Shown here piece after piece: positions 1-40,015 of a stretch of 64,000 bases of DNA. Positions within the stretch are counted from its first letter, which is position 1; every line of letters starts with the position of its first letter. Both the position numbers and the translations under genes were made by a program. This stretch comes from Scatophagus argus (taxonomy: Eukaryota > Chordata > Actinopteri > Scatophagidae), in NCBI RefSeq assembly GCF_020382885.2, contig NC_058515.1:4075223-4139222 (forward strand). The letters are read 5' to 3'. The notes under the pieces are model-generated. The model made no database searches and was not told the origin of the DNA. It worked only from the letters and a program-made list of their open reading frames with translations.

Positions 1-175
1 GTATGTATATTCTTGTATAGTCCTGTGCAGTATGTATAGTCTTACATCAGTGTGCACAGTGTACAGTGTGTATTTAGTTTCTAGGGCAGCACCTGGAGGA
101 ACGCTGTCTCGTTTCACTCTTCACTGTTACAGTAAACAGCTGAAATGACAATAAAACCTCTTGACGTGACTTGAC
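1..175 (+). repeat. Interspersed repeat, 3' end (fish family not named)
   Basis: The stretch ends in a body typical of a fish interspersed repeat (CACCTGGAGGAACGCTGTCT, then GACAATAAAACCTCTTGACG). The same unit recurs at 9290-9485 on the plus strand and at about 34262-34800 and 46130-46680 on the minus strand. The left end is cut by the window. I recognise it as a common fish repeat but cannot name the family. Confidence 0.6.
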
Positions 176-291
176 ATGTATGAACATCAGATCTTTATTG
201 CAAAATGAAATGTGTTGGTATCAGTGGTTCTTGCTGTCACAATCAAAGCATATTAACATGACACAGCATCATTTCCAGTTGCCTCCTGAGT

Positions 292-2620
292 CTATCTGGT
301 GGCAGCATAAACAACATTTGGCTCAGGCGCTCTCCTTTTTGCTTTTGGTCGAAATGTCACTGCTGCGTAGTTCAGCTCATCACAGCTCACGTTCTGTGGA
401 AATTTTAACGTGGTGAGTTGACATGAATTTAATTCCAACAATAAAGCCTGACACATCTGATTCTCTAGACATTTGCTTAGTAGGACACATTCAACTTGTC
501 AGTGCTCTCTGATGGACAAACCATAAAAAGGAAACAGTGTTAAGTCCCTCAAACATCACCCATATATTTATTCAGTGCAGTATATATACATGCATACATG
601 GAAATTTGCCAGTATTTGAGGGACAAGTTAAGTACAGTGTTGCAGTTTTTCGGTCCAGTTGGGTTCTACCAAAGAAGATAGAAAAGTAAATGTGAAAACT
701 GCATTCACCTCACTTTGCTGTGGATTGTGATCTTCTTTATCAGCTAAGAGACAGAAACAGAACATGTGGTCAGTTCATTGATATTTGGTTACCAGGAGTT
801 CTGCATTTTTCGACATTATTGACACAACTTCATGAACATTTCAACATCAAAGGTAAACGTAGGATGGACCCAGTAGCTGTGAAAAGTACCTGTCTGCAGT
901 TTCCTGTTTTGAACAACGAGAACGATAATGACCATTAGAAGGCAAACAGTCAGACCACCCAGGATCGCACTCGTCATCTTTGCAACTCCGTTAGACTCAA
1001 CTACAACAAAGATCATGAAGTCAAACTTTGTGTTTCATTTGGAGACTTGACACCTTGCAAAATTCAATGAAAATGAACCGAACTGAAAATAAATCTGAAA
1101 ATCTTACTTGTACACTTGCTGATCACGTCATCATGTGGCTCATCACTACCTTTGGAGTGAAGATAATTAAATCTTTTGTTTTCACAGATTCACTGTTTTA
1201 ACGGCCACTTTGTTCATGCGTTGTTGGAAAATAATTATGAAAATACAGTATAAACATAAAAGAACAATGAAAAGACATTAGAATTACGTTACCTTTTACA
1301 TTTAAGCGTATCCCACTGAAATGTGGTCTTGCAGTATTGTAAAATCCACATAAATACAGTCCAGAGTCAGATGAATCCACATGTTTGATTTTGAGAGAGA
1401 CAGTGGAGATGTTGGAGCTCATTTCAAATTTTCTGCTGTCATATCCATCACAGAAATTAACTTCTGATTTTGACATGGTAGAGATACAGGTGGTGTTGGG
1501 TCTATTGACCAGCTTGAACCAGAATATCACAGTTCCATACATGTACCCTTTGGTAATCCTCAGTGTGACATCTTCACCAGGCTGAGCCTCCACAGTCTGA
1601 TACTCAGAAAACAAAAATCTAAGAACCTTACTTTGAGTGTTGGAATCCACTTCATCAAGTTCAGCATCTTTAAAAAGAGACAGCAATGAAATAACTCGAC
1701 ACGTACTGTTTTGTTGTTTGTCTCCTGCACAGATACTGTGCTGTAGAGGTCTGACTGTATGAGACAAGCTGTTTTATGCTACGGTCACAATTCATTTGAC
1801 ATATACTGCAAATATGATGAGAAAAAATAAATCTTTCACAGACACGAGACTTAACAACAATCTCACCTTCAATATTTAAATGTGTTGCAGATGCAATGAC
1901 TGTATTTCTGTGGATGTAAAATCCACAGAAATACATCCCAGAATCAAACAAATCTACTCATTCTATTTTAAGATAAACAGCTGAGATGTTTGAGCTCATT
2001 TCAAATTTTCCATTTTGGAAAATAATTATGAAAATACAGTATAAACGTAAAAGAACAATGAAAAGACATTAGAATTACTTTACCTTTTACATTTAAGCGT
2101 ATCACACTGAAATGTGGTTTTCCAGAATTGTAAAATCCACATAAATACAGTCCAGAGTCAGATGAATCCACATGTTTGATTTTGAGAGAGACAGTGGAGA
2201 TGTCGGAGCTCATTTCAAATCTTCTGCTGTCATATCCATCACATAATTCAACTGTAGTTTTTAACATGATAGAGATACAGCTGGTGTTGGTTCTATTGAC
2301 CAGCCTGAACCAGAATGTCGCAGTGTCATATTTGGTCATATTCGTAATCCTCAGTGTGACTTCTTCACCAGGCTGAGCCTCCACAGTCTGATACTCAGAA
2401 AGCGAGACAGAGATCCAGCCTGAAAGAAACAGCAGACGACAGTAGACTTTAACATGAATATCACTTCATAAACATCAGCATCTAAATTATAGCAACATAA
2501 GTTTCAGTCAAGAAAGGTTAAACATGAAATACTGAGTTTATCAGTGAATGTAAAAATAATTTAACGTCAATACTTACTGAGGCTGTATAGAATGGAGGCG
2601 ACTAAAGTGAAGCTCATCAT
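292..2620 (-). CDS. SV1: ITIM-tailed Ig V receptor with a fused stem-V exon (two V domains)
   Basis: Split minus-strand gene. Proposed coding exons: leader 2578-2620 (MMSFTLVASILYSL), V1 2084-2419, fused stem+V2 1293-1667, Cys-containing stem 1108-1149, TM 890-1000, small cytoplasmic exon 709-743, tail 292-393. All junctions have GT..AG and agree in phase (phase 1 until the 35 nt exon, then 0). The TM segment is an uncharged run around GGLTVCLLMVIIVLVV. The tail holds an ITIM, LNYAAV, and later VVYAAT. Both V domains have FWF[RK]LVNR and D-S-G-L-Y-L-C, but the B-strand cysteine is replaced (TLRI). Known: ITIM tails recruit SHP-type phosphatases. Inferred: an inhibitory surface receptor. Odd: the second exon begins as the stem microexon of an SV4-type gene and runs without a stop into V2, and a decayed V piece sits in the intron (1867-2013). 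The cell may skip either V. I cannot name the family. Confidence 0.7.
1867..2013 (-). pseudogene. 3' half of an SV4-type V exon, stranded in the SV1 intron
   Basis: Translation gives KFEMSSNISAVYLKIE, then a stop where relatives have Arg, then VDLFDSGMYFCGFY and a donor after LNIEGE. It matches the V 3' half of SV4 and SV5, not the flanking SV1 V exons. Its upstream edge abuts intron sequence shared by all SV1-type genes (the TTGGAAAATAATTATG motif at about 2014), so the edge is a recombination junction. It has no acceptor of its own and is not expected to be spliced in. Confidence 0.75.
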
Positions 2621-3380: not shown

Positions 3381-5912
3381 CACCCCGAATTTTATTGTGT
3401 TATTTGTTGTGGTCTTGTGGATCAGTGATTATTGTCAAGATAACATGCAGACATCTTTCAAGATGCATCAAATCATTGCTCTCACGTCTGGTTGTGCAAG
3501 TGTGAGTCTGTAGCTTTTGACATGCCTGAAAGCAGCTTCTCATGGATGTCAGTCAGTCAGTATGTGATGGGTGGAGTCATGAAACAGGTTGGATATCATT
3601 TTAAGCAGCATCACTCTTGCTGCACCCTGCGAGGTCTTTGATGCGTGTGCGGTTATGGCTGGAAACCAGTCTTCCTGTGGTTGCTGTTTGTTGCCTTCGG
3701 GTTAATTTCTACACTTTTATCTAAACCAGGCCTACAATTATAGTATTTTTGTATTCATGACTAGGCTGCTGTTTACTGTTTCTTTTTATAATTCATACTA
3801 CTGCTGTCAAACAAGTCACCTCACTCATGGCAATCTAGACAGTAATGTGTACAAAGCATCAGTTTATAGAACAGTTTTAGTCAACAAAAGGGGAAAAACA
3901 GAAGGGACACATTGAAAAAAATTACATTTCCTTTGACAAGGAAGATGGTAACATTATGTTTCACTATAAGCTGCATTTAATATGGACACAATCAACAATA
4001 TACAGTGTTCTAAATCTATAAAATCAAAGGCAGTGCTGAATTTCTTCCTCACCAAGTGGAGCACTGCTGAGCAGCTCTGTGCTCCATGCTGCTGTGCTTA
4101 ACGGTGGCCAGAGGCTGAATTGCAGTGATATCACTGAAGAAAACAGGGGTCTCAGTAACATGTCTGTCCAGGCAGAGACAGTTGTTGCTCAGCACAGCTT
4201 GCCTGGTGTCGTTTTTGTCCGAATTTCCCCCTCTTTTAAAAGATAATCCTAATCCAGTGTTTGTATTTTTAGCTCTTCTCCTGTGACAAACTTTCTGAGC
4301 TCATGACAAACTGAAGTCAAAATTTGTCAAATTCCTTGTATGATCACACGTACTTGGCAAATAAAGCTGATTCTGATTCTGATTCTGATTCTAAAATGTC
4401 TGGAGTTTTGTTTCTACTGGTATTTTCTAATTTTCTGTCATTTTCTTATTTTCATTTTGCTGTGTTTCTCTGCATCTATGATTCAGGAGAAAGATAGCTA
4501 ACTGCTGAGTTTCTTTCCAATGTAATCAAATGCCACTAGTTTGGGTTAGTGAACATTTAATGACCTGCGAATGAGTGTGTGGGCAACTTGTAAAAGAGGG
4601 TGGGCCCGGGCCCATTAGACCGAGACCCATTAGGCCCACCCTCAACACAAGGGCGTCTTAAGATAAAAGAGCAAGTTGGGGGATGGGGGCAAGCTCACCT
4701 GCAGGCCCACTGCATGAGCACTTGTTGACAGTGTTAATGTAATTATTCTTTGTGCCTGAAGGGGGAGACAAGATTTCTTGTCGTGTTTTCACCACAGTGG
4801 AAAATGAAGACTTGTTGTTTAGCTGCATGTGCATGCAAGCCACAGCAAAGACAGAAAGCTACTCATCTAAATTTGTTATGTTCAAATTCACTTCACAATT
4901 GAAAAATTATCTCCATTGTATGTCAACATATTCAATCAAGAGCAGAAAATGACAGATTTGTGAAAATGTTTTCTGCATTAGTGTATGCTTTGTTTCATAC
5001 TCAGAAAAGTCTCATGGAGGTCACTCACTCCTCCCTCCTTGCAGCCTGATCCTTAATAACCCTATAAGGACATCTGACAGCTATCAGTGTCTTTGCTGGC
5101 TCCTCCTCCATCAAGTCAAACCTCAACCGTATGTATTTATGTCAATGTTAAAAAAAACAACAGCAACAACACTAATAATAAAAAAAAAGACTGAGCATGA
5201 GAAGGAAAGAAGCATGTGTGAATCAAAACCAAACACTAGAAAGGAAATAATATGTTTACCTTAATGTTGAATCTTTTTTTTTTTTTTTTTTAGCCATTTT
5301 AAGTTTCTAGACTTAATCCAGTGCAGTGGGGCTGGAGGAGATGGGGGGGCACTTGGGCATCTGGCACATCAATATTTCACTACATTTAACTGAGATCACA
5401 AGTTCATATTTATGTACAAACTTAAATAAATTACTTAAAGTGCGTCCTTGCATGTTACTGTCAGTGGATGTTTGTTACTGCTCATATACCAACAGAAGCA
5501 TGGCTTTGCATCAAAGCTTTCATATTAAAGGTCTTCTTATTTTCACCTCAGTTGTGCTCAGACCACACTGCGCTGGCACTTCCTTTTAAGCGTCGTGTCT
5601 CTCACTCATTCTTGCTTCTCCCCCAACAGACGCAGTCAGTGTCTTTTGCCTTTCATTGGGTGTCAAATGTCTTGTTGTTCCTCTCAGATGAAGGGTGGAT
5701 GAGGACAATGAGAAAGACAAAGGCTTTGGTTGAGAGACTGAAAGGATTCGAGCAAGAAAATGTAAACTGACTATGAATGCAGGAACTTTATTTGTCTTAC
5801 AAAAATGTTAACATCGACTCTTTCTGCCACCAGTTAACCAAACGTACTCATGTGGTCATTGGCTTGTAGCAGAAGAAGATGATAAAGCATCAGTTTCAGT
5901 TTCCTCCTGAGT
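3381..5912. other. Spacer between SV1 and SV2
   Basis: I see no gene here. Parts are shared with 11870-15540, so the spacer belongs to the 9.3 kb duplication. It includes a GATTCT microsatellite near 4370, an A-rich stretch near 5145-5190 and a T run near 5272-5292. Open frames such as 5326-5770 look like chance frames in the SV2 3' flank. Confidence 0.6.
4358..4396 (+). repeat. Short GATTCT microsatellite
   Basis: After AATAAAGCT the unit CTGATT/GATTCT is repeated about four to five times. This looks like the 3' end of an old interspersed repeat. Confidence 0.7.
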
Positions 5913-7480
5913 CTATCTGCTAATAGAATAAACAACATGAGTCTCCATTTGTTTCTCTGATGCTGGCTTCTCGTTTCTTGTCTCTGGAAGGAACTTGAAT
6001 GCTGCACAGTTCAGGTTATCGAAGTCCAGATTCTGTAAATCAGAGCATTTGGGGTCATGCACTGTCTGTGACATGCTCTAACCATTTTTACAAGAACTAG
6101 CATAGAATCTACTCTGGCTTATGCTTCCTGACAGCAAAATAAATAGTTTTCATGACGTACAGAAGTACAGAGGCTAAATATTATGTTTGAGTCACAAACG
6201 GTACACAAACACTGTTTTACACAAAACTGAAATGAGACTAAAGAACTAATACTTCACCTTGTTTCTTGCAAGATGCAGATCTCCAGCGGCAGCTACATCA
6301 TAAAAGATAAGTCTGATTAGTTACGTGTCACTGATCAAATATTTCTCTGTCACCACTTGATTCAGTGGGATGTACAACAAATGATATGTCCATTGTACCT
6401 TTCTGGAGCTGTTGGATTTTAACAGCCAGAACAATAACAGCCATCATGAGGAAAACAGTCAGACTGCCGAGGGTCACATTCATGATGTTTCCTGTTCTAT
6501 CAGGCTCCCCTACCAGAAAGATTATTACATTAAAATGTTTTTTAAAGGTGCAAAAACCAAAAATCACATTTCCCTGACAATTCATTTCAGATATACTGGA
6601 AATATGATAAGAATTAAAAAAAAAAATCCTTAATGAATCAATTTGGTTTTGCTTTAGCCATGGTTAAGAAAATGGTTTGAAATTACTGGCTCTGTGGGGA
6701 CTGGTAGCCTAAAAATCTAAGAACCTTACTTTGAGTGTTGAAATCCATTTCATCATCAAGTTCAGCATCTTTAAGAAACAGCAATGAAATAACTCGACAC
6801 GTACTGTTTTGTTGTTGTTAAATCTTTTGTTTTCACAGATTCACTATTTTAACGGCCACTTTGTTCATGCGTTGTTGGAAAATAATTATGAAAATACAGA
6901 ATAAACGTAAAAGAACAATGAAAAGACATTAGAATTACTTTACCTTTTACATTTAAACGTATCACACTGAAAAGTGGTTTTCCAGTATTGTAAAATCCAC
7001 ATAAATACAGTCCAGAGTCAGATGAATCCACATGTTTGATTTTGAGAGAGACAGTGGAGATGTTGGAGCTCATTTCAAATCTTCTGCTGTCATATCCATC
7101 ACAGATGTTAGGTTGCGAACTGAACATGATAGAGATACAGCTGGTGTTGGTTCTATTGACCAGCCTGAACCAGAATATCACAGTTCCATATTTGGTCATT
7201 TTCGTAATCCTCAGTGTGACTTCTTCACCAGACTGAGCCTCCACAGTCTGATACTCAGAAAGCGAGACAGAGATCCAGCCTGAAAGAAACAGCAGACGAC
7301 AGTAGACTTTAACATGAATATCACTTCATAAACATCAGCATCTAAATTATAGCAACATAAGTTTCAGTCAAGAAAGGTTAAACATGAAATACTGAGTGTA
7401 GCAGTGGATCTAAGAATAATATAACGTCAATACTTACTGAGGCTGTATAGAATGGAGGCGACTAAAGTGAAGCTCATCAT
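5913..7480 (-). CDS. SV2: chimeric single-V receptor, ITIM tyrosine replaced by Cys
   Basis: Exons: leader 7438-7480, V 6944-7279 (336 nt), stem 6730-6768 (39 nt), TM 6399-6509 (111 nt), cytoplasmic 6258-6292 (35 nt), tail 5913-6032 (120 nt). Splice sites and phases fit throughout. The leader and V match SV1/SV3 (B-strand Cys absent, TLRI; extra Cys pair at TSCIS and NICDGY). The stem (DAELDDEMDFNTQ), TM (VTLGSLTVFLMMAVIVLAV) and tail match SV4. The tail reads DNLNCAAFKF where SV1/SV3/SV5 have LNYAA[VL], so the ITIM tyrosine is lost. The only remaining tyrosine, in VVYSIS, lacks the +3 hydrophobic residue. Inferred: a membrane receptor or decoy that no longer signals through a classical ITIM. 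The switch from one type to the other lies in the V-stem intron near 6815-6830. Confidence 0.8.
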
Positions 7481-7499
7481 GGTGTGTCTGGCTGAATGT

Positions 7500-8240
7500 T
7501 CGTAATTAGAGTGTGCAGCAGGAAGGCTGCTCCCTATGTAAAGAGGTGGGCTGGTTGCTCTGACTGACTACATTCATGTCTTCAGGAAAATAGGTGGTGA
7601 TACATATTTTAGATGGCGTGAGCATCACACAAATCTATTTTCCACCAAACATTATTTGGTAGTAATCTTCACACCAAAGTCATTCAGTACAATCAACAAG
7701 ACATAATAAGATAAGACATAATGCATAGCACAACACCTTTACCTGATCATAAAGCTCAAAGTTGTCAGAGACATTGAATTCTTCAGAATGTTTGACTGAA
7801 TACAGGAAGACACTCAAGCTGAGATAAAAGTTAACATGTTAATGTCTGGCAGTATTTCTGCACTCTTGTTGGAGGATGTTTCTTTTTTCCTTCTGTTGGG
7901 ATTATGCACTGGAGTAAAGCCAGGGTGAAACATTGAGAGCACAGTCATCTTGTGGCCCTGAAACGAGCTGCCACATATTGTGGCTGTGTTCCACTGTGGA
8001 TGCTGCTCTCTATGAACACTCTGTTTCAGGACAATGTGGTCACCTGAAGGTTCCTCCAAACGTGTGGATGATTCTTGCTCCGTTTCAGTGACCACAGAGT
8101 TGGTGATCGTAGCCAGCAACTTTATGGTCCATGATGGCCATGGAGGGATAAACCTGGGTCACTATGATTTTAGGTTGACGTCAAGGTGTCAATACACTGG
8201 CAAGTGTGAGACAAAGTGTGTATTTGAATGTAGATGACTA
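7500..8240. other. Conserved upstream block of SV2 (copy 2 of 3)
   Basis: Near-identical to 2640-3380, so the duplicated unit carries the promoter-proximal region with the leader and V. No gene is called. Confidence 0.5.
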
Positions 8241-9289: not shown

Positions 9290-9485
9290 TTATATCTGTA
9301 GTGTTTGTGCAGTATGTATATTCTTGTATAGTCCTGTGCATTATGTATAGTTTTACATCAGTGTGCACAATGTACAGTGTGTATTTAGTTTCTAGGGCAG
9401 CACCTGGAGGAACGCTGTCTCGTTTCACTCTTCACTGTTACAGCAAACAGCTGAAATGACAATAAAACCTCTTGACGTGACTTGA
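9290..9485 (+). repeat. Interspersed repeat, second copy of the window-start repeat
   Basis: It matches 1-175 at an offset of 9311 bases, and the SV3 tail exon follows at the same offset from the SV1 tail exon. It marks the start of the second 9.3 kb duplication unit and shows more of the repeat's 5' part than copy 1. Confidence 0.7.
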
Positions 9486-9602
9486 CATGTATGAACATCA
9501 GATCTTTATTGCAAAATGAAATGTGTTGGTATCAGTGGTTCTTGCTGTCACAATCAAAGCATATTAACATGACACAGCATCATTTCCAGTTGCCTCCTGA
9601 GT

Positions 9603-11182
9603 CTATCTGGTGGCAGCATAAACAACATTTGGCTCAGGCGCTCTCCTTTTTGCTTTTGGTCGAAATGTCACTGCTGCGTAGTTCAGCTCATCACAGCTCA
9701 CGTTCTGTGGAAATTTTAACGTGGTGAGTTGACATGAATTTAATTCCAACAATAAAGCCTGACACATCTGATTCTCTAGACATTTGCTTAGTAGGACATA
9801 TTCAACTTGTCAGTGCTCTCTGATGGACAAACCATAAAAAGGAAACTGTGTTAAGTCCCTCAAACATCATTTTGCCATTTTTGACCACCATGTTTTAATT
9901 ACTTATTGGCCCATATATTTATTCAGTGCAGTATATATATACATGCATACATGGAAATTTGCCAGTATTTGAGGGACAAGTTAAGTACAGTGTTGCAGTT
10001 TTTCGGTCCAGTTGGGTTCTACCAAAGAAGATAGAAAAGTTAATGTGAAAACTGCATTCACCTCACTTTGCTGTGGATTGTGATCTTCTTTATCAGCTAA
10101 GAGACAGAAACAGAACATGTGGTCAGTTCATTGATATTTGGTTACCAGGAGTTCTGTATTTTTCTACATTATTGACACAACTTTATGAACATTTCAACAT
10201 CAAAGGTAAACGTAGGATGGACCCAGTAGCTGTGAAAAGTACCTGTCTGCAGTTTCCTGTTTTGAACAATGAGAACGATAATGACCATTAGAAGGCAAAC
10301 AGTCAGACCACCCAGGATCACACTCGTCATCTTTGCAACTCCGTTAGACTCAACTACAAGAAAGATCATGAAGTCAAACTTTGTTTTTTATTTGGAGACT
10401 TGACACCTTGCAAAATTCAATGAAAATGAACTGAACTGAAAATAAATCTGAAAATCTCACTTGTACACTTGTTGTTGACGTCATCATGTGGCTCGTCACT
10501 ACCTTCGGAGTGAAGATAATTAAATCTTTTGTTTTCACAGATTCGCTGTTTAAACGGCCGCTTTGTTCATGCGTTGTTGGAAAATAATCATGAAAATACA
10601 GTATAAACATAAAAGAACAATGAAAAGACATTAGAATTACTTTACCTTTTACATTTAATCGTATCACACTGAAAAGTGGTTTTCCAGTATTGTAAAATCC
10701 ACATAAATACAGTCCAGAGTCAGATGAATCCACATGTTTGATTTTGAGAGAGACAGTGGAGATGTTGGAGCTCATTTCAAATTTTCTGCTGTCATATCCA
10801 TCACAGATGTTAGGTTGCGAACTGAACATGATAGAGATACAGCTGGTGTTGGTTCTATTGACCAGCCTGAACCAGAATATCACAGTTCCATACATGTTCC
10901 CTTTGGTAATCCTCAGTGTGACTTCTTCACCAGGCTGAGCCTCCACAGTCTGATACTCAGAAAGCGAGACAGAGATCCAGCCTGAAAGAAACAGCAGACG
11001 ACAGTAGACTTTAACATGAATATCACTTCATAAACATCAGCATCTAAATTATAGCAACATAAGTTTCAGTCACGGAAGGTTAAACATGAAATACCGAGTT
11101 TAGCAGTGAATGTAAGAATAATTTAACGTCAACACTTACTGAGGCTGTATAGAATGGAGGCGACTAAAGTGAAGCTCATCAT
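9603..11182 (-). CDS. SV3: single Ig V receptor with ITIM tail
   Basis: This is the cleanest SV1-type gene. Exons: leader 11140-11182, V 10646-10981 (336 nt), stem 10461-10502 (42 nt), TM 10243-10353 (111 nt), cytoplasmic 10062-10096 (35 nt), tail 9603-9704 (102 nt). The mature product begins near SEYQTVEAQPGEEVTL. The V domain has TLRI in place of TLxC, FWFRLVNR, extra cysteines in TSCIS and NICDGY, and DSGLYLCGFY. The stem has one cysteine (NNKCT) that could form a disulfide dimer. The TM (GGLTVCLLMVIIVLIV) is uncharged. The tail has the ITIM LNYAAV and the terminal VVYAATR. Known: ITIMs recruit SH2 phosphatases. Inferred: an inhibitory leukocyte receptor. It is the single-V template from which the rearranged SV1 differs. 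Confidence 0.85.
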
Positions 11183-15549: not shown

Positions 15550-17149
15550 CTATCTGCTAATAGAATAAACAACATGAGTCTCCATTTGTTTCTCTGATGC
15601 TGGCTTCTCGTTTCTTGTCTCTGGAAGGAACTTGAATGCTGCACAGTTCAGGTTATCGAAGTCCAGATTCTGTAAATCAGAGCATTTGGGGTCATGCACT
15701 GTCTGTGACATGCTCTAACCATTTTTACAAGAACTAGCATAGAATTTACGCTGGCTTATGCTGCCTGACGGCAAAATAAATAGTTTTTATGACGTACAGA
15801 AGCACAGAGGCTAAATATTATGTTTGAGTTGCAAACGGTACACAAACACTGTTTTACACAAAACTAAAATGAGACCAAAGAACTAATACTTCACCTTGTT
15901 TCTTGCAAGATGCAGATCTCCAGCTGCAGCTACATCATAAAAGATAAGTCTGATTAGTTACGTGTCACTGATCAAATATTTCTCTGTCACCACTTGATTC
16001 AGTGGGATGTACAACAAATGATATGTCCGTTGTACCTTTCTGGAGCTGTTGGATTTTAACAGCCAGAACAATAACAGCCATCATGAGGAAAACAGTCAGA
16101 CTGCCAAGGGTCACATTCATGATGTTTCCTGTTCTATCAGGCTCCCCTGCCAGAAAGATTATTACATTAAAATGTTTTTTAAGGTGCAAAAACCAAAAAT
16201 CACATTTCCCTGACAATACATTCAGATATACTGGAAATATGATAAAAAAATCCTTAATGAATCAATTTGGTGGCTTTGGCCATGGTTAAGATTGAAATTA
16301 CTGGCTCTGTGGGGACTGGTGGCCCAAAAATCTGAGAACCTTACTTTGAGTGTTGGAATCCACTTCATCATCAGGTTCAGCATCACCTTTAAAAAGGAAC
16401 GGGATGAAATAACTCGACACGTGCTGGTTTTTTGTTTGTCTGATACTGTGCTGTAGAGGTCTGACTGTATGAGACAAGCAGTTTTATAGTACGGTCACAA
16501 TTAATTTGGCATATGCTGTAAATATGATAACTTATATAATATAAAAACATAACTTTAACAGACATGAGACTTAACAACAATCTCACCTTGAACGTTTAAA
16601 TGTATTGCAGTTGCAATGACTGTATGTGTCTTGATGTAAAATCCACAGAAATACATCCCAGAATCAGATAAATCCACTCGTTCTATTTTGAGAAAAACTG
16701 TTGAGATGTTTGAGCTCATTTCAAATTTTCCATTTTCAAATCCACGACAGGGTGAAGCTTCATCACCAAACCTATACATAGAGGAGATACAGGTGGGCTT
16801 GGTTCTGTTGACCACTCTGAACCAATCTGTCTGAGTTGGAGCTGTGGAAATGTTGGAGCACAGCAGTGTGGCTTCTTGACCAGGCTGAACCTCCACAGTC
16901 TGAAGGTCCGAGCCTGAGACGGAGATCCAGCCTGAAACACACGGCAGAGACAATCAGAGATTTACCCCTGAGAGCATAACGCATCAGTGACTGTAATAGG
17001 GTGACAACATTGACAGTTACTTCACTTCTAACTTGGAAGTTTACATTCTGGTGAGTTTCTGGTTATTTAATAATGGTTAGAATAATGAAGTGCCAGTACT
17101 CACTGAGGCTGCAGACGAATAAAGTTGATATTAAGCTGAGGCTCTTCAT
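15550..17149 (-). CDS. SV4: single Ig V receptor with Cys-substituted ITIM
   Basis: Exons: leader 17104-17149 (MKSLSLISTLFVCSL), V 16587-16931 (345 nt), stem 16345-16386, TM 16036-16146 (111 nt), cytoplasmic 15895-15929, tail 15550-15669. The V domain keeps the canonical B-strand Cys (ATLLCSN), TDWFRVVNRT, extra cysteines (PTCISS, ASPCRGF) and DSGMYFCGFY. The stem is DAEPDDEVDSNTQ, without cysteine. The TM is VTLGSLTVFLMMAVIVLAV. The tail reads DNLNCAAFKF, with cysteine where paralogs have the ITIM tyrosine, and ends in VVYSISR. Every splice junction is intact, so it looks expressed but without a classical ITIM. It supplied the 3' half of SV2, or was the other partner in the exchange. The family is unnamed; one-V teleost receptors of this kind are usually deposited as uncharacterised proteins. 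Confidence 0.82.
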
Positions 17150-22945: not shown

Positions 22946-24228
22946 TGCACCTGCACATGATCCTCTGTGGAATATGTAAGTTCCTTCATATAATATGCAT
23001 TTTGTATATCATTTTATTAATTCAGTCTCAGCTTATATTTCTATAATGTTATGTCCTCTCTTAGTTCACCTGTCAGCAGTGATCCAGTCGGCAGTCAAAC
23101 AGGACTCTGGGGTTATATCCGTCAGTGTTGGGGACAATGTGACTTTACATTGCTTCTATCACAGCCAAGTGGCGATGCACTTCTCCTGGTACAAACAAAT
23201 CTTAGGAGGTGAACCTGAAGTCCTGTCAAATATTTACAAGCATGAAATACCATCAAAACCGTTTCACCGGGTGGAGAAGGACCCTCGTTTCTCTGTGCAG
23301 AAGAGAGAAGGGGTGAATCATTTACACATTTCTGATGTCCACCTCTCAGATTCAGCTACATACTTCTGTGGAAGCTCACACTCCAACATGGTGGAATTTG
23401 GAAAGGGGGTCTTCCTAAGTGTCAAAGGTATTGTGTTTTTATTTCATATGGTTTCATATGCTTCCAGAGGTTTTCATTCTAAATAATCTGATTTACCTGT
23501 TATCATCTGAAGCAATGACAGTTTTCATTTGCTTAGACTGTAAGATCCAAATTATTTTATATTTAATGGTTAAACAAGTAAATATGCAGGAGATTAAGTA
23601 ACATTTGATTGTGCTAGGCTCTCCAGCAGTTTCAAACACATAATGGATACGTTATTGTTTTCAGATACTTAACTAGATACGGGGTCAATAATAAAACATA
23701 AAACTTAGAGCCTCCTAAATAAACTTTGTCTCCAAAAATCAAATAAAAGAAAAATCTTTTCTCTGACTGCTGTCCCTATGGATTTTAGGAGCCACGCCCA
23801 AGGGAATAGTCCAGAGTCCAGTATCAGAGACTATCCAGCCAGGAGGATCTATGACTTTCAACTGTACAGTACATACTGAAACCTGTGATGGAAAACACAG
23901 TGTTTACTGGTTCAGACATGGGTCTCGCCAAGGAATTCTTCACAGACACATCTCCACCCCACAGTCTTCTTCACAGAGTTGTGTCTACCATTTGCAGAAG
24001 ATGAACGTGAGCACCTCTGATGCTGGAACATACTACTGTGCTGTGGCCTACTGTGGGATGATAATGTTTGGTAATGGAAGCGAGTTGGTCGTCAGAGGTG
24101 ATGTTGGAGCCCAAATGGCACAGATGAAAATCTTAGTCTGGCTCTCCATCATTAGAACTGTAATTCTGTTGTTCTTTATGACTATTTGTCTTTTGGTTTA
24201 CACCAGTAGGAGCAGGCAAAGGCCTTAA
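22946..24228 (+). CDS. N0: activating-type NITR with arginine in the transmembrane segment
   Basis: Three coding exons: leader 22946-22976 (MHLHMILCGI), V 23065-23427 (363 nt), I plus TM plus tail 23789-24228, all joined in phase 1. The V domain has VTLHCFY, FSWYKQ, DSATYFC and a J-like FGKG. The I domain carries the NITR signature: NCTVHTETC, HSVYWF, GTYYCAVAYC and FGNGSEL. The I exon runs without an intron into ILVWLSIIRTVILLFFMTI, a membrane segment with a central Arg, and ends in the short basic tail TSRSRQRP. No ITIM is present. Known: NITRs with a basic TM residue pair with the ITAM adaptor DAP12. Inferred: activating receptor. Odd: it is the only plus-strand gene, V and I are split (N1-N7 have one exon), and it lacks the DQCE cysteine of the other I domains. 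A donor-like GTGATG after VVRG could allow another splice form. Confidence 0.85.
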
Positions 24229-27997: not shown

Positions 27998-28014
27998 GAC
28001 TGTCCAATCAGATT
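27998..28014 (-). promoter_or_regulatory. Conserved inverted CCAAT element of the NITR promoters (N1 copy)
   Basis: The plus strand reads TGTCCAATCAGATT about 80 bp upstream of the ATG. The same box, with only the base before CCAAT changing, lies before every minus-strand NITR: about 33864 (N2), 38671 (N3), 41925 (pseudogene), 45725 (N4), 50483 (N5), 56776 (N6) and 61465 (N7). It reads ATTGG in the gene direction. No TATA box is evident. It suggests a common expression programme. Confidence 0.55.
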
Positions 28015-28019
28015 CTTTG

Positions 28020-28984
28020 TCCTATTTTGGAAACACTGAAAACATGTTCAGTGCTCTGTAACATGACAGTGTTAGTCTTACATAAGCAGAGAACAACAGT
28101 AACAACAAATGAGTGGCCATACATTAAATCACAAATACTGGAGTCATAAAAACACTATTCACCCGTTTTCCACAAGAACAAACATGTAAGATCAAAGACA
28201 AACTTATAGAGATGTCATTATATTCAACTTCTGTTGTTCAATGAAAAGAATCTTAATACTTACTCTTACAGACTAGATTGTATTTGATTAGCCAACCTGA
28301 CGTGACTGTGTATGACCTGTAAATGAAATATGATCACATGAGAACATTTACATTGTTAGTTATTTAAGTAGATCAACATTCTGGTATTGGATTTAAAGTC
28401 ACTGAAAAATGTATAATTCAATATAAACCCTAGTACCAATGCTCAATAGAAGTCCTTGCTCCATTTGGATGTCATTATGTCAAACAGTAAACAACATGGA
28501 AATATGACTTATACTGGAGCCTTCCACCAGGGTGAGATCAACATCTTTTGGCTTTGCCTTTGGGGAGCCCACATGTCATCCATCTTTATACACATTCAGT
28601 GGTCCAGTGTGTCAGCTCAGAGGTCCCACATTATATAACACAAGTTCCAAACAAACTAACATTTAGCCACAAATAAGACTCAAACTCTGGTCTCCCCCAG
28701 GTTAGCCCAGTGACCCATCCAACCACCTCACCCTCTTTTCTCATTCTTTAATCCTGTACTAAAGAGCCCAGAAATCACACTAGAGGGTTTGCTCCAGCTT
28801 CATACTCAGAGGTGAAGGACCATTTGGTCAGACATACGTCATGAGTTAATAAAGCACTGATTATCATGAAAGAAATTTCATAATATTAAAATAGCCATAT
28901 TTTAAAGACAAAATCAAAAATGTAGTTAATGTTTTCTTTGTAGATTTTTTGTAATCCGAATACATACTAACATCACATAACCCC
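28020..28984. other. N1 5' flank, shared with the N3 5' flank
   Basis: It parallels 38690-39720 with few differences. The N3 copy has about 150 bp extra near 39290-39450. No gene is seen. Confidence 0.6.
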
Positions 28985-29880
28985 CTGATTCACTTCCTCC
29001 TCACCTTTACTCCTCTGATTTCTGTAATCCAATTTTATCTTTTTTCTCTTCCGTAATTGAACATATCCACCAGCAACTTACACCCACCTCTGTTCCAAAG
29101 TCACCTGCTCCAGTTCTATTTGGCCTCCACCCATTTACTCTCAGCATTCTTCCTACCCTCAGTCAATGAAATTACCAAACTTATTAAAAAAATCCATGTC
29201 CTCAACCTGCCAATTAGACCCCCTTCCCACTGTTGTACTGTTGTAAAGGCCACCCTCCCCTCTCATCACAGACATCATTCACTCTTCCCTTATCACTGGA
29301 ATTGTCCCTTCCTCTCTCAAAACAGCTGCTGTAACTCCAATACTCAAGAAACCTGGTTCAGATCCCAACAACCTTGATAATTTTTGTCCGATTTCAAATC
29401 TTCCATTCATCTCCAAATTCTTGAAAAACTTCAGCACAATTTCACACACCGTCCTTCTGAACAGACTTTCCTCTATTGGCATCACAAACACACCTCTCAA
29501 ATGGTTTCATTAATACCTTTCAGGCCATACTCAGTTCATTCAGTTAAAATCACTCACCTCCCACCCAGTCCCTGTCACCACAGGTGTGCCCCAGGGCTCT
29601 GTCTGTTGTTCATCATTGATCTTCTCCACCCCCGGTGTCACATTTTCCTCAAACATCAAATCCACTTTCACTGCTACGCGGATGACACTGAGCTTTACCT
29701 TTCAATCAAACCCAACTCCTCACTCCCACCTTCCTCCCTCACCAACTGCCTTCTTGAAATAAAATCCTGGTTCTTCTGAAGAGGAAAAAATTCACATTAA
29801 TGAAAGTCCATAACATCTCTATTCCCATCGATGACTCCGAGATCTCCCCTTCCCCTCAGGTAAAGAGTCTGACTTTATAA
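28985..29880 (+). mobile_element. L2/Maui-like LINE fragment (reverse transcriptase), plus strand
   Basis: Translation across frames gives [11 protein letters not shown], then SSLKTAAVTPILKKPGSDPN-type residues, [26 protein letters not shown]-type residues, [26 protein letters not shown] and LEIKSWF. The YADD box is the reverse-transcriptase catalytic motif. It has several frameshifts and an internal deletion between the finger and palm regions. The end (29790-29870) matches the start of the fragment at 39735. Confidence 0.75.
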
Positions 29881-29889
29881 CTATAACAT

Positions 29890-30115
29890 TGGGAGCAGCC
29901 GTGGCCTAGAGGTTGGAGAGGAGGCTTGTGACCTGAGGGTTGCTGGTTCAATTCCCCCACTGGACTGGCAGGAAAAATTTGAGTGTGGTTGAGTGATTAA
30001 TAAGAAAATGCCCCCCTCATTAGTCGGTTGATGTGCCCTTGAGCAAGGAACTTAACGGTCAATTCAGCCGATCTGCTCCCCTCAGATCTGCCGATTCTCT
30101 GGACTGGTTTAAGAT
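29890..30115 (+). repeat. tRNA-derived SINE
   Basis: The head reads GCAGCCGTGGCCTAGAGGTT (A-box-like) and GGTTCAATTCCCCC (B-box-like). The body has AAAAATTTGAGTGTGG and TGTGCCCTTGAGCAAGG. Same family as 34985-35345 and 40005-40235. It directly follows the LINE fragment. Confidence 0.75.
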
Positions 30116-36391: not shown

Positions 36392-38593
36392 CTACTGCTT
36401 TACACTGGAGTACACGCATTCAGTATTGGTGTTGCTCCTCTGTCTTCTGGATCTGTCAGTCTTGAGATCCTTTAAAGCAGCATAATGAAGGTTCTCTGTG
36501 TCTTGACGTAACTGGGAAGAAAATATCAAATGATTCATCCCTCTTACAGCAGATACAGAACAAGAGAGGAAAAACAAAATGAGTGCTCAGGAATCAGTTG
36601 TGTGTGCAATAATTAATAGTAATGACTGCCTATATTATATCTGTGCATATATGACCAGCTAAGTTGTCCAAGTCCTGACAAACAATGCTTGAAAGTTTAA
36701 ATTGCTCTCTGTGACAACAGGTGAGGAAAATAACATTGTGTTAATAAAATTCCTATGTTTTTCCATTAGAACTTGACACTTACCGCTGCATTTGTAGAAG
36801 AAGCTGAAAATGTCACGTTAGACTCTGGTTGTGACACACAAAATGAAGGCCATTTTATTTGAGTGCAATACACAGTAAAACTTGCTGTCATCTTCAAACA
36901 GTAACAGTTACCTGTATATTGGCAGTTCCTTTTGTTCATCTTGTACACTGTGAAAGCCAGTAACACAACCAGGATGGTGGTGAATGACAAAGCTGCACTC
37001 AAGATATACACAAGAGAGTCCACCTCATCTGTGGAGAGGCAGACACCCGGAGACATTACAGGAGACATTACATTCTTATGTTTTTTTCTCATCTGCTTTG
37101 GGTATTTTGATCTTAAAATAATGCTGGCATGACCATTTGTACATTGAAAGACAGGTTTGTCCTTATAATTTTCGCTACAAAGAGATCCCTTTATAAAGCC
37201 ATGTCAGCTCAAGTAACTGGGGACAACTCTGTGGGTGTGCATGGTTACTGCTCATGATGAGCGGACATGAAAGTGTGTGTGAATTGTGTGTGTGGGGAAT
37301 TCTGTTGTAAAGTGTTTTGAGAGGTCAGTCAGACTAGAAAAAGTGCAGTATAAATAAAATGCACAAGAGACTGTAGGGAGGCAAAGACCAGAAGACATTA
37401 CACAGTTCTTATGTGCTTTCTCATCTGGTTTCATATTGTAGTGTCTGTGGTTCAGTGTGGTTCATTTGCACAAAACAAGGACTGTAGATGTTTTATCACC
37501 CTCACTGGGGTTGCATTAGGAAGGACCTACTTCATGATCAGTGCGGACATGAGTAAGTTTTATATTTAGCAGTAAATCATTTTAGTATGTGATTACTACA
37601 TTAAGGTAGACTTACAAACATGTCTGTTCGGGAGTTATTTATCAAAGAAGACAACCTAAAACAGTTACTCACAGTCAACGTCTAACTTAGTCCAGTCGCT
37701 AAACAGAATGTGTCCACATGAGGCAACAGCACAGGAGTAGGTCCCAGCATGAGAAACATTCAGGTTCTTCATTGGCAAGCTGTAGACACAGGAGTGTGTT
37801 TGTGTGCTGGGTTTCCTCTCACACTGATCATTCCTGCCTCCATGGGTGTAAATGAGTCCTGGATGAGATTCTCCAGAGTTTTTGAACCAGTAAACACTGT
37901 GTTCTCCATCACAGGTCCCAGTGTGTACTGTACAGTTCAGAGTCACAGAGCCTCCTGGCTGGATGGTCTCCGATGCTGACTGATGGACCAAAACTGGGGT
38001 TTTCAGGCCTGAGCCCTTTACTATTATGGTTGTGCCCTCACAAAATTCAAAAATAGGGAAGTTGTTCTTTAAGCAGTAGTAAGTACCTGAGTCTGAAATT
38101 TGGAACTCTGAAATCTTCAACTGATATTTACGATTTTCAATGTCCACTGAGAAACGTGGATTCTTAAATTCATCATGAAAGGTGATGTTGGCATTATAAC
38201 TGGCGAATGAAGACACCAGCTTTGGTGTGAATCCCACAGTTTCCTTATACCAGTAAAAGGTTAGTGCTCCCTTATCAAGACAGAAACACGACAAATTCAC
38301 ATTTTGTCCAACATCAACTGATAGAAAATATAATGATGACTGCTTTAAAGCTGTTGTGTGAGCTGAGGAGAAGATGAAGAAACAGAACAAACACACATTT
38401 AATTAAATTCTACCATGTTGCAATGAGCTGTACAACAGAACTCATGAAAATAGATTATAAGATAACATATGATCATAGTATATAATTATAACATTAAATA
38501 GCATAGTAAACAATAGACAGTAACAAAATACAACTTACCAATATTCACCACAAACAGACATGCGACACACAAAGCAAAGTTTGGAGGTGCCAT
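36392..38593 (-). CDS. N3: inhibitory NITR with degenerate second J-like motif
   Basis: Exons: leader 38539-38593, V-I 37673-38362 (690 nt), TM 36912-37028, linker 36784-36824 (41 nt, one codon shorter than in the others), tail 36392-36511. The V domain has LSCFCLDKG, FYWYKE, DSGTYYC and FCEGTT. The I domain is typical but ends HILFSDWTKLDV, where others have FGNGTKL, so the glycines of the J-like strand are gone. It also reads GTYSC where N1, N2, N4, N6 and N7 have GTYYC. The TM is LVYILSAALSFTTILVVLLAF. The tail has LHYAALKD and CVYSSV. It shares the I-domain changes with N5, and its 5' flank with N1. Confidence 0.87.
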
Positions 38594-38599
38594 AGTGCT

Positions 38600-39729
38600 T
38601 CAGAAGCTGCGATGAGTGAGCTGAATCTCTCTATGCTGTCTCCTCTTCAGTGAGAAGACTGGGTTTGACTGTCCAATCAGATTCTTTGTCCTATTTTGGA
38701 AACACTGAAAACATGTTCAGTGCTCTGTAACATGACAATGTCGGTCTTTCAGAAGCAGAGAACAACAGTAACAACAAATGAGTGGCCATACATTAAATCA
38801 CATACTGGAGTCATAAAAACACTATTCACCCGTTTTCCACAAGAACAAACATGTAAGATCAAAGACAAACCTATAGAGATGTCATTATATTCAACTTCTG
38901 TAGTTCAGTGAAAAGAATCTTAATACTTATTCTTAGAGACTAGATTGTATTTGATTAGCCAACCTGACGTGATTGTGTTTGACCTGTAAATGAAATATGA
39001 TCACATGAAAACATTTACATTGTTAGTTATTTAAGTAGATCATCATTCTGGCATTGGATTTAAAGTCACTGAAAAATGTATAATTCAATATAAACCCTAG
39101 TACCAATGCTCAATAGAAGTCCTTGCTCCATTTGGATGTCATTATGTCAAACAGTAAACAACATGGAAATATGACTTATACTGGAGCCTTCCACCAGGGT
39201 GAGATCAACATCTTTTGGCTTTGCCTTTGGGGAGCCCACATGTTATCCATCTTTATATACATTCAGTGGTCCAGTGTGTCAGCACAGAGGTCCTGAAGAT
39301 GATTTTCCTTTGCTTTGAAACTCTTGAAATACTTACCAGTATTCACCATGATCACATCAGTTGTGTTGCATGTTACTTACACACTGACTGTTACACACCG
39401 ACTTGTGTTAGTAATACTATGTGTATCTATCATCCATTAGGTAACTTACCTTATATAACAGAAGTTCCAAACAAACTAACTTAAACATTTAGCCACACAT
39501 AAAACTCAAACTCTGGTCTCCCCCAGGTTAGTTCAGTGACCCATCCAACCACCTCACCCTCTTCCAGACTCAGACTTTTCTCATTCTTTAATCCTGTACT
39601 AAAGAGCCCAGAAATCACACTAGAGGGTTTGCTACTACAGCTTCATACTCAGAGGTGAAGGACCATTTGGTCAGACATACATCATGAGTTAATAAAGCAT
39701 TGATTATCATGAAAGTTAGTTCACCTCAA
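38600..39729. other. N3 5' flank, copy of the N1 5' flank
   Basis: It parallels 27930-28900 (leader-proximal CCAAT box, then the same non-coding sequence). Bases 39290-39450 are extra relative to the N1 flank. No gene is seen. Confidence 0.6.
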
Positions 39730-40015
39730 ACTTCCTCTTCTTTTGACCAGGACAAAATCCACCTTAATGAAAGTCCATAACTTCTCTATTCCCATCGATG
39801 ACTCCTCCATCTCCCCTTCCCCTCAGGTAAAGAATCTGAGAGTCATCCTTGGCAGCACTCTCTCCTTCACCTCCCACATCAGTAGTGTCACCCGGTCCTC
39901 CTACTTCCAAATCTGTAACATCAACCATCTCCGTCCTTCCCTCACTCCTCACTCCACTGCCATTCTTGTTCACAGCCTAATCATCTCCCTTTTACACTAT
40001 TGGTTCAATTCCCCC
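39730..40015 (+). mobile_element. LINE fragment (L2/Maui-like, after the reverse-transcriptase palm)
   Basis: Translation gives TKSTLMKVHNFSIPIDDSS, VKNLRVILGSTLSFTSHISS, INHLRPSLTPHSTAILVHSL and IISLLHYW, the thumb region after YADD in this LINE family. It continues at 40240-40385, beyond a SINE piece. Confidence 0.7.

Follow-up and report, generated by a model that had tools for sequence, protein, structure and literature searches.

A candidate two-V receptor gene with a composite stem-V exon in a probable NITR cluster of Scatophagus argus

Introduction

Several described receptor families bear on the gene analysed here, and each is summarised as far as the accessible text of its source extends. 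The NILT genes of salmon are close in exon layout. According to the available sections of PMC3022915, they encode one or two V-type domains in a clustered family with both one- and two-domain members, and they consist of leader, V (one or two), connecting-peptide, membrane, short tail and ITIM exons, separated by introns in phase 1 with the last in phase 0. NILT3 combines two V-type domains with ITIMs; the two domains are encoded by separate exons (330 and 321 nt), are 26% alike, and expression was confirmed by RT-PCR (PMC3022915, same sections). NILT V domains are further described there as carrying both canonical cysteines together with an extra pair spaced as CX3C, CX6C or CX7C. In the part of PMC2442602 at hand, the NITRs of medaka chromosomes 18 and 21 and of pufferfish are clustered V-domain receptors with ITIMs and with two Ig domains in one exon. 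The second of these domains, the I domain, carries six conserved cysteines and served as a search criterion for NITRs, though some NITRs lack it, while a J or J-like motif, FGXGTXLXV, stands at the end of the V and/or I domain in nearly all medaka NITRs. KIR fusion genes encode receptors that unequal homologous crossover has assembled from segments of genes lying in tandem in an NK-receptor cluster (PMC5290243, available portion). In zebrafish, a single gene, Nitr9, yields variants of its extracellular part by alternative splicing, and these forms were shown by transcripts and antibodies (PMC3463160, available portion).

Here we analyse SV1, a gene in a 64,000-nt stretch of Scatophagus argus DNA (NC_058515.1, positions 4,075,223 to 4,139,222), referred to as the window. 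SV1 follows the NILT layout, leader-V-(V)-connecting peptide-membrane-tail1-tail2, with every predicted junction in phase 1 apart from a final one in phase 0 (1, 1, 1, 1, 0), and with lengths of 43 nt (leader), 336 (V), 42 (stem), 111 (membrane), 35 and 102 (tails). Phase-1 Ig exons are widespread in the Ig superfamily (PMC3022915, available sections), and the match is thus unspecific. Unlike NILT3, SV1 has its second V domain, V2, in the same exon as a stem, and V2 is 77% identical to the first, V1. The cysteine pattern of NILT is found in neither, since both lack the first canonical cysteine and have a C-X11-C spacing instead. The I domain with six conserved cysteines is absent from the predicted SV1 protein, which has two V domains only, the second being a copy of the same V; because NITRs without an I domain exist, this alone does not exclude SV1 from the NITRs. 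The J-like motif FGXGTXLXV is likewise absent at the ends of V1 and V2. SV1 resembles the KIR fusions in being assembled from neighbours, but its joints share at most 2 nt, and a stem exon and an Ig exon have merged into one. It resembles Nitr9 in that one gene would give extracellular variants, which in SV1 are predicted from competing donors of one exon.

An initial annotation of the window had called SV1 a new tandem-V architecture. This was overstated, as a salmon NILT already has ITIMs and a pair of V-type domains in a phase-1 gene (PMC3022915, available sections), and fusion genes within clusters (KIR) and extracellular splice forms (Nitr9) are also on record in the sources as accessible. 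Among the matches listed from the open-access literature, no title dealt with the fusion of a stem and a V exon across a remnant of intron, and none dealt with this SV family.

Exon structure of SV1

The genes compared are all read downwards: SV2 starts at 7480 and SV3 at 11182, and SV4 and SV5 have their V exons at about 16930 and about 20382. The 14-residue leader of SV1 is identical in SV2 and SV3. The gene had initially been placed at 1293..2620; its features inside this interval were confirmed (Table 1), but the gene runs beyond it, through the exons at 1149-1108, 1000-890, 743-709 and 393-292.

Table 1. Exons, remnants and joints of SV1 in the window (a slash separates exon and intron in donor sites)
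Feature	Positions	Strand	Description
SV1 leader exon	2578..2620	-	43 nt, ends in phase 1
SV1 V1 exon	2084..2419	-	336 nt, phase 1 at both ends, SV3-type V domain, donor AAG/GTAAAG
SV3-type intron after V1	2015..2083	-	69 nt; identity 67/69 to SV3, 68/69 to SV2
Joint 1	2015..2016	-	SV3-type intron to SV4-type V exon; these 2 nt common to both parents
SV4/SV5-type V exon remnant	1869..2016	-	in-frame TGA; lacks 5' part and acceptor
SV4-type stem exon	1632..1667	-	36 nt; acceptor (CTCTTTTTAAAG), intact donor AAA/GTAAGG
Joint 2	1611..1631	-	SV4-type intron 1631-1612 (20 nt) plus base 1611
V2	1293..1610	-	SV3-type V domain, joined right before SEYQTVEAQ; donor AAG/GTAACG
Composite 375-nt exon	1293..1667	-	stem, intron remnant and V2
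Normal SV3-type stem exon	1108..1149	-	42 nt, phase 1
Membrane exon	890..1000	-	111 nt
First tail exon	709..743	-	35 nt, ends in phase 0; 0/35 differences to SV3
Last coding exon	292..393	-	102 nt, ITIM LNYAAV and stop codon; 0/102 differences to SV3

The composite exon had been described as stop-free and as fitting between V1 and the normal stem, and both statements were borne out. One of its three minus-strand frames is open over the whole length, and this is the frame set by V1; with phase 1 at either end, the exon can be joined in silico to the others in an uninterrupted frame, giving a predicted product of 347 residues with two V domains and one ITIM, LNYAAV, at residue 321. An ITIM has the form (S/I/V/L)-x-Y-x-x-(I/V/L) and lies in the cytoplasmic tail. 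The membrane segment of SV1, ILGGLTVCLLMVIIVLVV, contains no charged residue, and the predicted protein would therefore combine the tail ITIM and the uncharged membrane segment that mark ITIM-bearing inhibitory receptors.

The proposed composite origin, from an SV4-type stem exon, an intron remnant and an SV1/SV3-type V, also agrees with the matches to neighbouring copies. The first 55-56 nt of the exon match the stem exons and the start of the following introns at 16383, 6768 and 19834 (86-92%), and the last 318 nt have their counterparts in V exons, namely those of SV3 (93.4%), SV2 (90.9%) and V1 (90.3%), with E at most 4.8e-124 for all three. The 20 nt of intron at joint 2 would be coding if the 375-nt exon is used. 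By this comparison, the similarity of the exon to its parents goes far beyond what chance would give. The same cannot be said of the frame match alone, because a rough simulation with an assumed base composition puts the probability that a join is in frame and open by accident at about 0.21, or about 1 in 5.

Mosaic origin of SV1

Comparison among the copies within the window makes it very likely that SV1 is a mosaic, with an SV3-type 5' part, an SV4-type middle, and a V2, stem, membrane segment and tail of SV3 type. The first block is 95.5% like SV2 (2700-2015) and 94.4% like SV3 (2698-2015), the second is 84.3% like SV4 (2016-1612) and 84.3% like SV5 (2016-1613), and the third, 1610-1, is 94.6% like SV3 over 1652 columns. 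The middle piece, of about 400 nt, contains the 3' part of a V exon, then an intron, and finally the stem exon with 20 nt of the intron behind it. Over 2018-1869, the V exon remnant is identical to SV4 at 131/150 positions and to SV5 at 134/150, while the stem part is closest to the SV4-type half of SV2 (100/103 identical), with SV4 at 95/105 and SV5 at 91/105. It follows from these blocks that a 387-nt SV3-type stretch, made up of a V domain and the following intron, is present twice, once on each side of the SV4-like insert.

At joint 1, the parents have only the dinucleotide AA in common; joint 2 shows an overlap of no more than 1 nt, and its base 1611 matches neither SV3 nor SV4. The initial statement that the exon was made by recombination is thus right in outline, but with such short sharing the joints are no crossovers within long homology. 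The short sharing also bears on the reading of the mosaic as an assembly error, in which reads of different copies were joined. Copies that are about 94-97% alike over long stretches are hard for assemblers; with no more than 2 nt shared at the joints, however, an overlap assembly would have had nothing to join on, and the insert, at about 16% divergence from both SV4 and SV5 of the window, is no misplaced copy of either. We regard an assembly error as very improbable.

Another reading holds that SV1 is unexpressed or dying and that the fusion is a functionless chance by-product of copying and deletion in a tandem array. The neighbouring V remnant does show that such rearrangements leave debris, and birth and death of genes is reported for NITR clusters in the available part of PMC2442602. 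Against this stand the leader, V1, stem, membrane and tail exons, which are all open with their splice sites present, and the two tail exons, which are identical to those of SV3; we consider a dying gene improbable.

The 3' end of SV1 (window 1-558) is 98.9% identical to that of SV3 (9312-9869), and the next part is 95.8% identical, which is perhaps due to a recent gene conversion of the tail exons. Between SV1 and SV3, 42 gap columns fall in the intron preceding the last exon.

SV2 (window 5503-7560, minus strand) has a leader and V of SV3 type followed by a stem, membrane segment and tail of SV4 type, with a joint near 6817 in an intron. Positions 7558-6818 are 96.8% like SV3 and 6816-5503 are 94.5% like SV4, and the joint lies without long homology between the parents. 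As judged from these matches, SV2 is a clean fusion of the SV3 and SV4 gene types within the V-stem intron.

The V1 and V2 domains

Both V domains of SV1 score above the Pfam V-set cut-off of 26 bits, V1 with 39.6 and V2 with 40.6. V2 retains W49, C60, C72, C106 and the DSGLYLCG stretch, and it aligns with SV3 over 318 nt with no stop and no gap, in contrast to the adjoining V remnant, which has a stop. V1 ends in HFSVIRLNVK and V2 in HFSGIRLNVK. The first canonical cysteine is replaced in both (VTLRI, where SV4 has TLLC), leaving three cysteines each. It is absent from all four V domains of SV1/SV3 type in the window (minus strand, 2085-2417, 1294-1611, 6945-7277 and 10647-10979), and the second canonical cysteine is kept in these four without its usual partner.

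If SEYQTVEAQ is taken as the start of the mature V domain, V2 would have lost only the residues that in V1 lie between the leader and the domain. Two features count against use of the two-V form: V2 deviates at E32D, R51K and T56P, where the other four aligned V domains agree, and the linker ends in VLRFLF, a hydrophobic and mostly intron-derived stretch without a known role.

The best of five AlphaFold models of V2 has a mean pLDDT of 70.1 and nine strands in an Ig-V-like arrangement, with residues 1-20, the linker, below 50 and unordered; the remaining four models range from 51.6 to 33.5, so that only one of five is fair. The predicted fold would thus lend modest support to V2 as an Ig-V domain. 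A Foldseek search with this model returned Ig V-type domains in most of the 50 rows listed; the top rows among the matches listed were mainly T-cell-receptor and antibody V domains, and NITR10 stood at rank 38. With a profile of five V domains, NITR10 and NITR11 chains matched at E 2e-5 to 2e-4, and titin, an antibody chain and CD8 alpha matched equally well or better. Assignment of the family by sequence or fold search was not retained, as it gave generic V-set matches. When the V alignment was scanned against a prokaryote collection (genome_contigs) and a viral one (viral_contigs), 88 and 98 pattern matches came up, respectively, with no confirmed relative among them, and such collections say little.

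Selection on the V domains

Private changes, counted as amino-acid-changing to silent, amount to 11:0 in V2, 10:1 in V1, 1:0 in SV2 and 0:0 in SV3. Set against the share of amino-acid-changing sites, these give p = 0.07 for V2, p = 0.28 for V1 and p = 0.03 combined, where neither these nor the following p values are corrected for the number of tests. Pairwise dN/dS in six comparisons ranged from 0.71 to 2.80, and none was significant (smallest p = 0.11). Between V2 and SV3, amino-acid-changing differences (18/249) exceed the differences in the four introns of the 3' half (17/711, p = 0.001), but this excess vanishes against the two adjacent introns (11/250, p = 0.19) and against the nearest one (6/143, p = 0.28). 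V1 differs from SV3 and from SV2 by more than its flanking introns do (p = 0.01 and 0.03), and V1 and V2 differ at 29/249 positions, as opposed to 2/69 in the 69 nt of intron that they have in common (p = 0.04).

These hints would fit diversifying V domains; the changes may also predate the fusion or stem from gene conversion. As far as V2 itself is concerned, the tests appear indecisive, and selection is not proven. The open frame of V2 is weak evidence as well, because a domain of this kind would be expected to stay stop-free after 22 random changes in 44% of cases.

Splice-site competition at the composite exon

The initial annotation held that the composite exon reads through its former donor. 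The frame is indeed open across this site, but the donor is not lost: AAA/GTAAGG at 1632/1631 is intact, and the stem exons of SV2, SV4 and SV5 have exactly the same donor. The two measures of donor strength point in opposite directions. A frequency score gives 7.9 bits for the old stem donor and 7.2 bits for the V2 donor at 1293/1292, whereas the U1 pairing energy is -5.0 kcal/mol for the former and -7.9 kcal/mol for the latter. The V2 donor pairs best with U1 among the GT sites scored between 1680 and 1280; the V1 donor reaches the same value, -7.9 kcal/mol, and each of the two has one unpaired base inside. Weak pairing need not mean disuse, because in each of the genes SV1 to SV5 the stem donor has a weak pairing energy, of -4.5 to -5.0. 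The acceptor before 1667 scores 8.1 bits, the normal stem acceptor 4.7 and the V1 acceptor 9.8. Since the old donor is intact and the two measures disagree on the stronger site, a donor simply read through finds no support, and a competition of two donors would be the fair statement.

Four exon combinations are open to the final stop: the two-V form (1044 nt), the one-V form with the 36-nt exon (705 nt), the one-V form with the exon skipped (669 nt) and the leader joined directly to V2 (708 nt). All four are in frame, and therefore the frame alone cannot choose between them. Two internal acceptors were considered as starts of V2 and rejected. The exons that they would open, from about 1618 after CTTAG and from 1602 after CTGAG, are out of phase with the V1 donor, as derived by hand. 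An intron from 1631 to either site would be only 13 or 29 nt long, which is too short.

It is conceivable that splicing uses only the 36-nt stem exon, in the manner of SV2, SV4 and SV5, with V2 an undecayed intronic passenger and SV1 a one-V receptor with a double stem only. The stem exon keeps its acceptor, its donor equals that of these three genes, the 705-nt product is in frame, and both the frequency score and the expected share of stop-free passengers accord with this reading. The U1 pairing, on the other hand, prefers the V2 donor, and the private changes of V2 resemble those of V1, with core residues kept. Exclusive use of the short exon seems rather unlikely to us. That the exon belongs to a two-V receptor, as initially proposed, holds in that it can be read so in frame; its use in one piece is a prediction, made in the face of competing donors. 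From the sequence, we lean slightly towards the 375-nt exon being used in some SV1 transcripts, alongside the one-V form.

Proposed history and working of SV1

A two-step origin of SV1 is attractive, since SV2 is a fusion of the same two gene types. The simplest history would start from an ancestral tandem array of three genes, A (SV3-type), B (SV4-like) and C (SV3-type), and would require two successive end-joined deletions. The first would have joined A to the inside of B's V exon, leaving a one-V gene A/B that would have been viable, as SV2 appears to be. The second would have taken out what was left of B, together with that part of C's V exon which belongs to the signal peptide, thereby fusing B's stem exon to the mature V domain of C.

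A single replication event with template switching, from an SV3-type gene to an SV4-like one and back to a point further upstream, could also account for the origin and would fit either use of the exon. One event would explain both the 387-nt SV3-type repeat around the SV4-type insert and joints of at most 2 nt. It requires two simultaneous switches, though, and SV2 shows a single join of the same gene types arising alone, so that we hold template switching possible but doubtful as compared with two deletions.

The acceptor before 1667 would be served by two donors. Splicing at the far one, 1293/1292, would give a type I receptor in which a 20-residue linker connects two V domains and which has one ITIM, while the near, old donor at 1632/1631 would give a one-V receptor with a double stem. 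If SV1 is expressed, both RNAs would be expected. Linkers in laboratory scFv are of a length similar to these 20 residues. A far-reaching proposal, which we deem very unlikely in its entirety, is that SV1 represents a natural single-chain V-V receptor soon after its birth, in which a stem exon has turned into a 20-residue linker, V1 sits beside V2, donor competition toggles between the one-V and two-V forms, and both V domains diversify.

If a two-V mRNA exists, SV1 would document the birth of a two-domain innate receptor from genes with one domain each, in an array that also contains relatives of its parents. It would also be an instance of exon-exon fusion through an intron remnant in which the old donor provides an in-frame escape, the new form being tried while the old one is kept. 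SV1 adds a probable case of immune-receptor gene recombination via joints without long homology.

Surroundings in the window

From about 23 kb to 61 kb, the window contains eight receptor-like genes in which a V domain is accompanied by another Ig domain (ORFs of at least 130 residues), and which we take to be NITR-like. Seven of them, on the minus strand at 26988-61200, carry both domains in one open frame. This is also the layout of the NITRs of medaka chromosomes 18 and 21 and of pufferfish in the available text of PMC2442602. The eighth, on the plus strand at 22980-24228, has the two domains in separate frames and an arginine in a membrane-like segment, SIIRTVILLFF; an arginine in the membrane segment is reported for the activating NITR9 (PMC2442602, available part). 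Most likely these genes form a cluster of NITRs from a spiny-rayed fish, because the layout and an FGNGT-type motif agree with those of medaka NITRs as given in the same source. A search with one neighbouring V-I gene listed antibody-type chains in the best 60 of 9464 matches, and the NITR name of these neighbours therefore rests on their V-I layout and their motifs.

The ITIM-like LNYAAV has lost its tyrosine to a cysteine in both SV2 and SV4 (LNCAAF; 5916-6032 and 15553-15669, minus strand), while SV1, SV3 and SV5 keep LNYAA(V/L); judging by this motif, the SV tail types may differ in signalling. In a 2-kb profile of the window, the GC skew is strongly negative and stands out at 28001-30000 (-0.293) and at 38001-40000 (-0.171).
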